DNA of 64,000 bases, taken from Streptosporangiales bacterium (GTDB lineage: Bacteria > Actinomycetota > Actinomycetes > Streptosporangiales > WHST01). Below, piece after piece: positions 4,598-6,207 of the stretch. The stretch lies in contig WHTA01000007.1 of NCBI GenBank assembly GCA_009379825.1, forward strand, positions 62,001 through 126,000. Direction: 5' to 3'. The translations under genes were made by a program, and so were the position numbers. A model generated the notes under the pieces. It did not search any database, had not been told where the DNA came from, and saw nothing but the letters and a program-made list of their open reading frames with translations. Every line of letters begins with the position of its first letter. Position 1 is the stretch's first letter.

Positions 4598-4656
4598 GCG
4601 CCCAACACGCGGGTCGTGCCACGGTTTAACTCATATGTGAGATATCTTCTCCTCTC

Positions 4657-6207
4657 GTGTCCGAGGAACGAGAACTCCAGTCCACCGACTACCTGCGCAA
4701 AGTCGGCATCCTGATCCGCGATGCCCGCAAGCACGGCGGGTGGACGCAGGCCCAGCTGGCCGAGGCCATCGGCACCAGCCAGAGTGCGATCAACCGGATC
4801 GAGAACGGCCACCAGAACGTCAGCCTCGAGATGCTGGCGCGGATCAGTGAGGCGGTGGACTCGGAGATCGTCTCGCTCGGGCACGCCGGCACCATGCATC
4901 TACGGGTCGTCGGCGGCCGCCGGCTGTCCGGCAGCATCAACGTGAAGACGAGCAAGAACGCCGGTGTCGCGCTGCTGTGCGCCGCGATGCTGAACAAGGG
5001 CCGCACGACGTTGCGCAAGGTCGCCAGGATCGAAGAGGTCAACCGGATCGTCGAGGTGCTGACCAGCATCGGCGTGAAGATCCGCTGGCTGAACGAGGAC
5101 AACGACCTGGAGATCGTGCCGCCGGAGCAGTTCGACCTGGCGAACATGGACGTGGAGGCGGCGCGCCGCACCAGGAGCATCATCATGTTCCTCGGCCCGC
5201 TGATGCACACCGAGGAGAAGTTCGAGCTGCCGTACGCCGGCGGCTGCAAGCTCGGTGCGCGTACCGTCGAGCCGCACATGACGGCGCTGCGGCCGTTCGG
5301 CCTCGAGGTCAAGGCGACGTCGGGCAGCTACCACGCGGAGGTGGACCGGACGATACGGCCGACGCGGCCGATCGTGCTGACCGAGCGGGGCGACACCGTC
5401 ACCGAGAACGCGCTGCTGGCCGCGGCCGGTCGCGAGGGCGTCACGGTGATCCGCAACGCCAGCCCGAACTACATGGTGCAGGACCTCTGCTTCTTCCTCG
5501 ACGCACTCGGGGTGAGGATCGAGGGCATCGGCACCACCGCGCTCACCGTGCACGGCGTCGGCCAGATCGACTTCGACGTCGACTATGCACCGTCCGAGGA
5601 CCCGATCGAGGCGATGAGCCTGATCACCGCCGCGATCGTCACCGACTCGAAGATCACCATCAAGCGGGCGCCGATCGAGTTCCTTGAGATCGAGCTGGCG
5701 CTGCTCGAGGAGATGGGCCTCAGCTACGAGCGCAGCGACGAGTACCCGGCGGCGAACGGCCGTACCCGGCTGGTCGACCTCACCATCCACCCGTCGGTGC
5801 TGAAGGCGCCGATCGACAAGATCCACCCGATGCCGTTCCCCGGCCTGAACATCGACAACCTGCCGTTCTTCGCGCTCATCGCCGCGACCGCACACGGTTC
5901 CACGCTGATCCACGACTGGGTGTACGAGAACCGCGCGCTCTACTTCACCGAGCTCACCAAGCTCGGCGCGAGCGTCACCCTCCTCGACCCGCACCGGGTG
6001 TACGTGGAGGGCCCGACGCACTGGTCGGCCGCCGAGGTGATGTGTCCCGCCGCCCTGCGTCCCGCGGTGGTCACGCTGCTCGCCATGCTCGCCGCCCGCG
6101 GTACGTCGGTGCTGCGCAACGTCTACGTGATCAACCGCGGCTACGAGCAGCTGGCGGAGCGGCTGAACCTGCTCGGCGCCAGGATCGGGGTCTTCCGCGA
6201 CATCTGA
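4657..6207 (+). CDS. XRE helix-turn-helix domain fused to a MurA-type enolpyruvyl transferase
   Basis: 516 residues from GTG 4657. Residues about 12-70 are an XRE/Cro helix-turn-helix (WTQAQLAEAIGTSQSAINRIENG). From about 82 to the end is a complete UDP-GlcNAc 1-carboxyvinyltransferase: K100-N101 in the substrate loop, catalytic loop GGCKLGARTVEPH with C197 (equivalent to E. coli Cys115), and the PFPGLNID segment carrying the catalytic Asp. The enzyme class commits UDP-GlcNAc to peptidoglycan. All catalytic residues I can check are intact, so it may be both enzyme and DNA-binding regulator. There is no convincing Shine-Dalgarno; the leader contains CTCA-TATG-TGAG (4631-4642), a weak candidate operator. 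It could be a second, non-essential MurA or a specialised UDP-sugar enzyme. Confidence 0.87.
   Translation: MSEERELQSTDYLRKVGILIRDARKHGGWTQAQLAEAIGTSQSAINRIENGHQNVSLEMLARISEAVDSEIVSLGHAGTMHLRVVGGRRLSGSINVKTSKNAGVALLCAAMLNKGRTTLRKVARIEEVNRIVEVLTSIGVKIRWLNEDNDLEIVPPEQFDLANMDVEAARRTRSIIMFLGPLMHTEEKFELPYAGGCKLGARTVEPHMTALRPFGLEVKATSGSYHAEVDRTIRPTRPIVLTERGDTVTENALLAAAGREGVTVIRNASPNYMVQDLCFFLDALGVRIEGIGTTALTVHGVGQIDFDVDYAPSEDPIEAMSLITAAIVTDSKITIKRAPIEFLEIELALLEEMGLSYERSDEYPAANGRTRLVDLTIHPSVLKAPIDKIHPMPFPGLNIDNLPFFALIAATAHGSTLIHDWVYENRALYFTELTKLGASVTLLDPHRVYVEGPTHWSAAEVMCPAALRPAVVTLLAMLAARGTSVLRNVYVINRGYEQLAERLNLLGARIGVFRDI

Follow-up and report, generated by a model that had tools for sequence, protein, structure and literature searches.

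Which reaction, and which genes, are in the charge of a protein that carries a repressor-type DNA-binding domain in front of a peptidoglycan-precursor enzyme? The question is raised by a gene at positions 4657–6207 (+ strand) of the window analysed here, a 64,000-nucleotide stretch of DNA from a Streptosporangiales bacterium. The gene is a single open frame with a GTG start, encodes 516 amino acids, and was described in an earlier note, from the sequence alone, as an XRE repressor domain fused to a catalytically complete MurA that could tie wall synthesis to transcription. The family is a known, uncharacterised one; what it newly receives here is an operator, a model of its promoter and grounds for doubting the MurA name.

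A fusion family of single origin

That an XRE-type helix-turn-helix (HTH) is joined to a MurA fold is borne out by domain matches within the one open frame. HTH_3 (PF01381) aligns with residues 20–68 (4714–4860, + strand; E = 2.7e-16) at 59.8 bits against a gathering score of 23, placing the protein among XRE/Cro-CI regulators, and the HTH region also matches NCBIfam NF006015; the EPSP_synthase/MurA domain (PF00275) follows at residues 86–503 (E = 1.9e-44). In an AlphaFold2 model built from 27 orthologs (mean pLDDT 83.9), the HTH is succeeded by a linker (residues 69–79; 4861–4893, + strand), with pLDDT below 50 at residues 71–78, and by a MurA-fold domain (residues 81–511; 4897–6189, + strand). 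This domain of the model superimposes on MurA structures with a TM-score of ~0.9, NikO and then AroA coming next, and by sequence the best PDB matches are all MurA (E = 4e-51), the NikO structure 4fqd being matched more weakly (E = 6e-21). A chance or mis-called fusion is ruled out by the same fusion in 93 orthologs.

A scan of GTDB contigs returned at least 592 matching stretches, 80 of which were retained, with 74–88% identity over nearly the whole length. Orthologs in this range occur in Acidothermales, Pseudonocardiaceae, Micromonosporaceae, Streptosporangiaceae and Streptomyces, and further hosts are Actinopolymorpha, Nonomuraea and Kitasatospora. The gene is core in Streptomyces (198 of 199 genomes, and all 194 of good quality) and patchy elsewhere, being present in 7 of 61 near relatives and in 16 of 396 genomes drawn from the phylum as a whole, the majority of the latter belonging to the genus Streptomyces. 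In a tree with unfused MurAs, the fusion proteins form a monophyletic clade (support 100/100), the stem of which measures 4.37 changes per site and is far longer than any branch separating the MurA classes; on this phylogeny, the HTH-MurA fusion is a family of single origin. The sister group of the clade was not interpreted, because the tree method warns of long-branch attraction. The MurA domain of the fusion is more conserved than the true MurA of the same hosts in 28 of 28 host pairs, with means of 82% vs 66%, which means strong constraint on the fusion protein; horizontal transfer may account for part of this high conservation between hosts.

Comparison of the neighbours of orthologs disclosed no conserved operon or pathway partner outside Streptomycetaceae, where an aconitase gene lies close to the fusion gene. 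In the window, a pair of neighbouring genes that encode VanY-type D-alanyl-D-alanine carboxypeptidase domains (PF02557; 517–1605 and 1686–2846, both on the − strand) sits 1.8–4 kb upstream; the pair is not kept beside the fusion genes of relatives. A fosfomycin self-resistance cluster was considered and ruled out, as no supporting neighbours surround the fusion gene.

An operator in the promoter of the fusion gene

The small dyad noticed ahead of the gene (CTCATATGTGAG, 4630–4641) is indeed there, and it proved to be part of a 16-bp operator, AACTCA-TATG-TGAGAT (4628–4643, + strand). The upstream regions of the 93 orthologs yield the family consensus ATCTCA-N4-TGAGAT, from which the site in the window departs by one mismatch in the left arm. 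The operator is kept in 92 of the 93 orthologs, with no more than two mismatches, and both arms are perfect in 81; among ~1,800 control windows taken at these loci, none comes within fewer than two mismatches of it, and nine have two. The arms are fixed, whereas the four bases between them vary and the flanking columns are unconserved between families. The genome of locus L046 has a further operator-like site, 117 bp upstream of the first (G069:C1:6035299-6035432).

The right arm of the operator overlaps a −10 box of the form TANNNT (TATCTT, 4643–4648, + strand), in which the TA is found in 92 of 92 orthologs and the last T in 90. From the box to the start codon there are 8 nt (4649–4656, + strand), a spacer too short for a Shine-Dalgarno sequence, and the distance is 6–8 nt in 88 of 92 orthologs, 63 of which have 7 nt before an ATG. 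This is the −10 layout of a leaderless gene, and the transcript is accordingly predicted to be leaderless, which would explain why, as the earlier note had remarked and we confirm, no Shine-Dalgarno sequence precedes the GTG.

Most XRE regulators autoregulate via palindromes (PMC12565409), and a palindromic operator in the gene's own promoter is likewise a trait of the fusion family. In the HTH, 15 of 52 positions are invariant, including T40-S41-Q42-S43-A44, R47 and E49, in the region of the recognition helix (near residues 42–49). Conservation of the operator makes a good case that the fused HTH binds DNA; repression rather than activation we infer solely because the operator overlaps the −10 box. 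A decayed ortholog, L193 (G218:C1:1261846-), has a frameshift near residue 390 and a divergent HTH and has lost the operator, a joint change that fits the operator and the HTH being partners. A −10-like TACGAT is still present at this locus, 7 nt before an ATG.

A predicted regulon of one gene

Searched for as a 17-mer with two mismatches allowed, the operator turned up in 20 of 24 genomes and, with few exceptions, at the fusion gene alone. The 17-mer occurs in 188 of 199 Streptomyces genomes, for the most part as a single copy at the fusion gene, and in 7 of 61 relatives, of which 4 have it at the fusion gene; most of the relatives without the fusion among these 61 are also without an operator site. 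When one arm mismatch was allowed in 32 genomes, the perfect-arm sites among the matches listed all belonged to the fusion gene, but for one extra in one genome. An excess of one-mismatch sites over a reversed-pattern control carries no weight, that control not being composition-matched. Upstream of true murA genes there is no operator, the sequences there having at least four mismatches to it.

The extra perfect-arm sites that were examined closely lie within the coding frame for a ROK-like regulator, next to a MarR-type gene where the genome lacks the fusion, or between TetR-like and IclR-like genes of the source genome; none of them recurs with the fusion, and they were set aside as targets. 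The site at the MarR-type gene is a recurrent dyad, ATCTCAACGTTGAGATA, present at L197 and L198 (genomes G004 and G015) and in G581, G586, G512, G494, G618 and G556. In G004, from which the fusion is absent, its neighbours are the MarR-type gene on one side and a divergent transporter gene on the other. This dyad is probably the operator of another regulator.

Within the limits searched, by a consensus that could miss weaker operators elsewhere, the sole recurrent position of the operator is thus the fusion gene's own promoter, and the predicted target is therefore the gene itself: the fusion protein probably regulates only itself. Of the proposal that wall synthesis is tied to transcription by DNA binding, the part that concerns binding stands, as the conserved operator supports it, but the link to the wall most likely does not, with the own promoter as predicted target and true murA without a site.

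An altered active site beside a true MurA

The residues originally singled out do align with those of MurA: K100, N101, C197 and D400 (the Asp of PFPGxxxD) correspond to K22, N23, C115 and D305, and R173, R202, R426 and R494 are retained as well. A catalytically complete MurA, however, is contradicted by fixed substitutions at 27 MurA-invariant positions and by a score below the cut-off of TIGR01072, the MurA equivalog model. The comparison covered 71 positions with a conservation of 95% or more in a set of 48 unfused MurAs (actinobacterial proteins of the Cys and Asp types and two proteobacterial ones); the fusion proteins retain 40 of these, are mixed at 4 and differ at 27 in essentially all 92 members. 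In MurA numbering, those kept include K22, N23, R91, C115, R120, H125, D305, R331, R371 and R397, and the catalytic and PEP residues expected of a MurA (K22, N23, C115 or Asp, R120, D305, R397) are invariant, as are R91 and R331. By contrast, D369 and E188-P189-E190, invariant in the 48 unfused MurAs, are gone from all 92 fusion proteins, the former replaced by P or A (A465 in the window protein) and the latter by N-Y-M (N271-Y272-M273). S162, in the diphosphate-binding loop, a region of MurA named in PMC8698320, has become G (G245 in the window protein), R232 has become P and T304 has become I. The replacing residues are largely invariant themselves; at positions 121, 163 and 164, some unfused MurAs vary as well. 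Judged by this alignment, the PEP-side catalytic residues are kept, and the motifs around UDP-GlcNAc are replaced by equally invariant residues. Against the TIGR01072 cut-off of 392.7 bits, the window protein scores 304 and its orthologs ~294–318; a looser subfamily model is narrowly passed by the window protein (316.8 vs 297).

In E. coli MurA, D369 is listed as one of the residues that interact with ligands (PMC4062475), but MurA D369N has been found in viable clinical E. coli (PMC10352792), so that loss of this residue alone is no proof of lost activity. Taken as a whole, the altered active site suggests that the fusion protein may not perform the MurA reaction, although the changed positions could be compensated, leaving genuine MurA activity.

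A second, unfused murA, the existence of which had been left to be checked, is present in the source genome (G000:C57), and another MurA above the equivalog cut-off occurs in 18 of 18 host genomes tested. At the position of Cys115, the only true MurA of the source genome (G000:C57:13748-14989; L002/L165) carries Asp, and so do the top-scoring true MurAs in those hosts examined from Pseudonocardiaceae, Micromonosporaceae and Actinopolymorpha; the fusion always has Cys. Replacement of Cys115 by Asp makes MurA fosfomycin-insensitive in other species.

Discussion

We consider it fairly probable, from comparative sequence analysis, that the gene encodes an autogenously repressed, MurA-derived and neofunctionalised enolpyruvyl-transferase-like enzyme or sensor. 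The protein, dimeric through its HTHs, would occupy the operator and deny RNA polymerase access to the −10 box of its own gene; binding of a ligand would close the MurA-like domain, the HTHs would lose their spacing, and the repression thus lifted would allow more protein to be made. Control by substrate occupancy, as put forward in the earlier note, is a plausible mechanism. The MurA-like domain probably still carries out PEP-dependent chemistry on, or senses, a substrate other than UDP-GlcNAc. More tentatively, the locus could be a one-gene circuit, in which an enolpyruvyl transferase with a new acceptor doubles as its own repressor and substrate sensor and has a regulon of exactly one gene.

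Relatives of both halves of the protein help to place it. With MurA (TIGR01072) it shares the fold (TM-score ~0.9), ~30% identity, the PEP-side residues and the reactive Cys; it differs in the N-terminal HTH and in the replacement of D369, E188-P189-E190, S162, R232, T304 and 20 further positions. NikO (4fqd), of the nikkomycin pathway, is a MurA-like enzyme of Streptomyces that acts on an acceptor other than UDP-GlcNAc and represents the next-best PDB fold group after MurA, but it is a pathway gene product without an HTH and a much weaker match (E = 6e-21 vs 4e-51 for MurA). BzdR consists of an XRE HTH and a shikimate-kinase-like domain that senses benzoyl-CoA, and it is the HTH part of BzdR that NF006015 matches in the fusion. 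Regulators of this type, like the fusion, have an XRE HTH at the N-terminus and the fold of a metabolic enzyme behind it, whereas in the fusion the sensor fold is that of MurA rather than shikimate kinase, catalytic residues are kept and the regulon is apparently the gene itself.

The Streptomyces HTH-MurA gene is matched, by literature and genome context, to SCO5998 ('MurA2') of S. coelicolor, which adjoins SCO5999 just as the fusion gene is close to aconitase in Streptomycetaceae; Streptomyces orthologs are 74–77% identical over the full length of the protein and share the operator. The available portions of PMC12161575 and PMC8346170 treat SCO5998 as a UDP-GlcNAc transferase of peptidoglycan synthesis, and mention in those portions neither autoregulation through an operator nor a changed active site. 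They describe a SigB-dependent promoter (PMC8346170) and, in the stretch that separates SCO5998 from SCO5999, a predicted DmdR1 site (PMC12161575), which point to further inputs on this gene.

The fusion could accordingly be what the name 'MurA2' implies, a true second isozyme with its own repressor domain that makes UDP-GlcNAc-enolpyruvate and is turned on when wall precursors are low or under stress. The MurA fold and all PEP-contacting residues are retained, SCO5998 is named one of two UDP-GlcNAc transferases (PMC12161575) and is SigB-dependent (PMC8346170), Firmicutes have two functional MurAs (PMC6736417), and the fusion keeps Cys where the main MurA of the source host has Asp at 115. We nevertheless regard this explanation as unlikely, in view of the replacement of 27 MurA-invariant positions, including D369, E188, E190 and S162, in essentially all members, of scores under the equivalog cut-off, and of a stem whose length far exceeds that of any branch separating MurA classes.

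Should the domain instead have lost catalysis altogether, the protein would be a pseudoenzyme regulator in which a PEP- or sugar-phosphate-like ligand, bound by the MurA-like domain, controls the HTH. Loss of D369 and E188/E190 in all members, together with the precedent of XRE regulators that have enzyme-derived sensor domains, such as BzdR, speaks for such a regulator, which is still improbable: the reactive Cys, Lys22, Arg120, Arg397 and Asp305 are invariant in more than 90 proteins, residues for which a domain that only binds would have little use, and an apparent regulon consisting of the gene itself leaves a pure regulator nothing else to control. Least credible, and very improbable indeed, is an HTH that is a relic or serves dimerisation alone, with the dyad belonging to another regulator. 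Similar dyads probably do serve other regulators in these genomes, as with ATCTCAACGTTGAGATA beside the MarR-type gene of a genome lacking the fusion; yet the site follows the fusion gene across families that share no other neighbours and is otherwise nearly unique, the recognition-helix residues are invariant, and L193, with its frameshift and divergent HTH, is also without the operator.

The operator, the leaderless promoter predicted with it and the fixed changes of the active site thus mark the fusion, on our preferred reading of a neofunctionalised MurA derivative, as a distinct, self-controlled protein. It is universal in good-quality Streptomyces genomes and more conserved than the essential MurA in the hosts compared, yet it has been assumed to be a redundant wall enzyme. 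If it uses a new acceptor, one of the core metabolic steps in actinomycetes would have been overlooked, and if the one-gene circuit is real, there would be an unrecognised metabolite, and a pathway to go with it, in Streptomyces and other actinomycetes.
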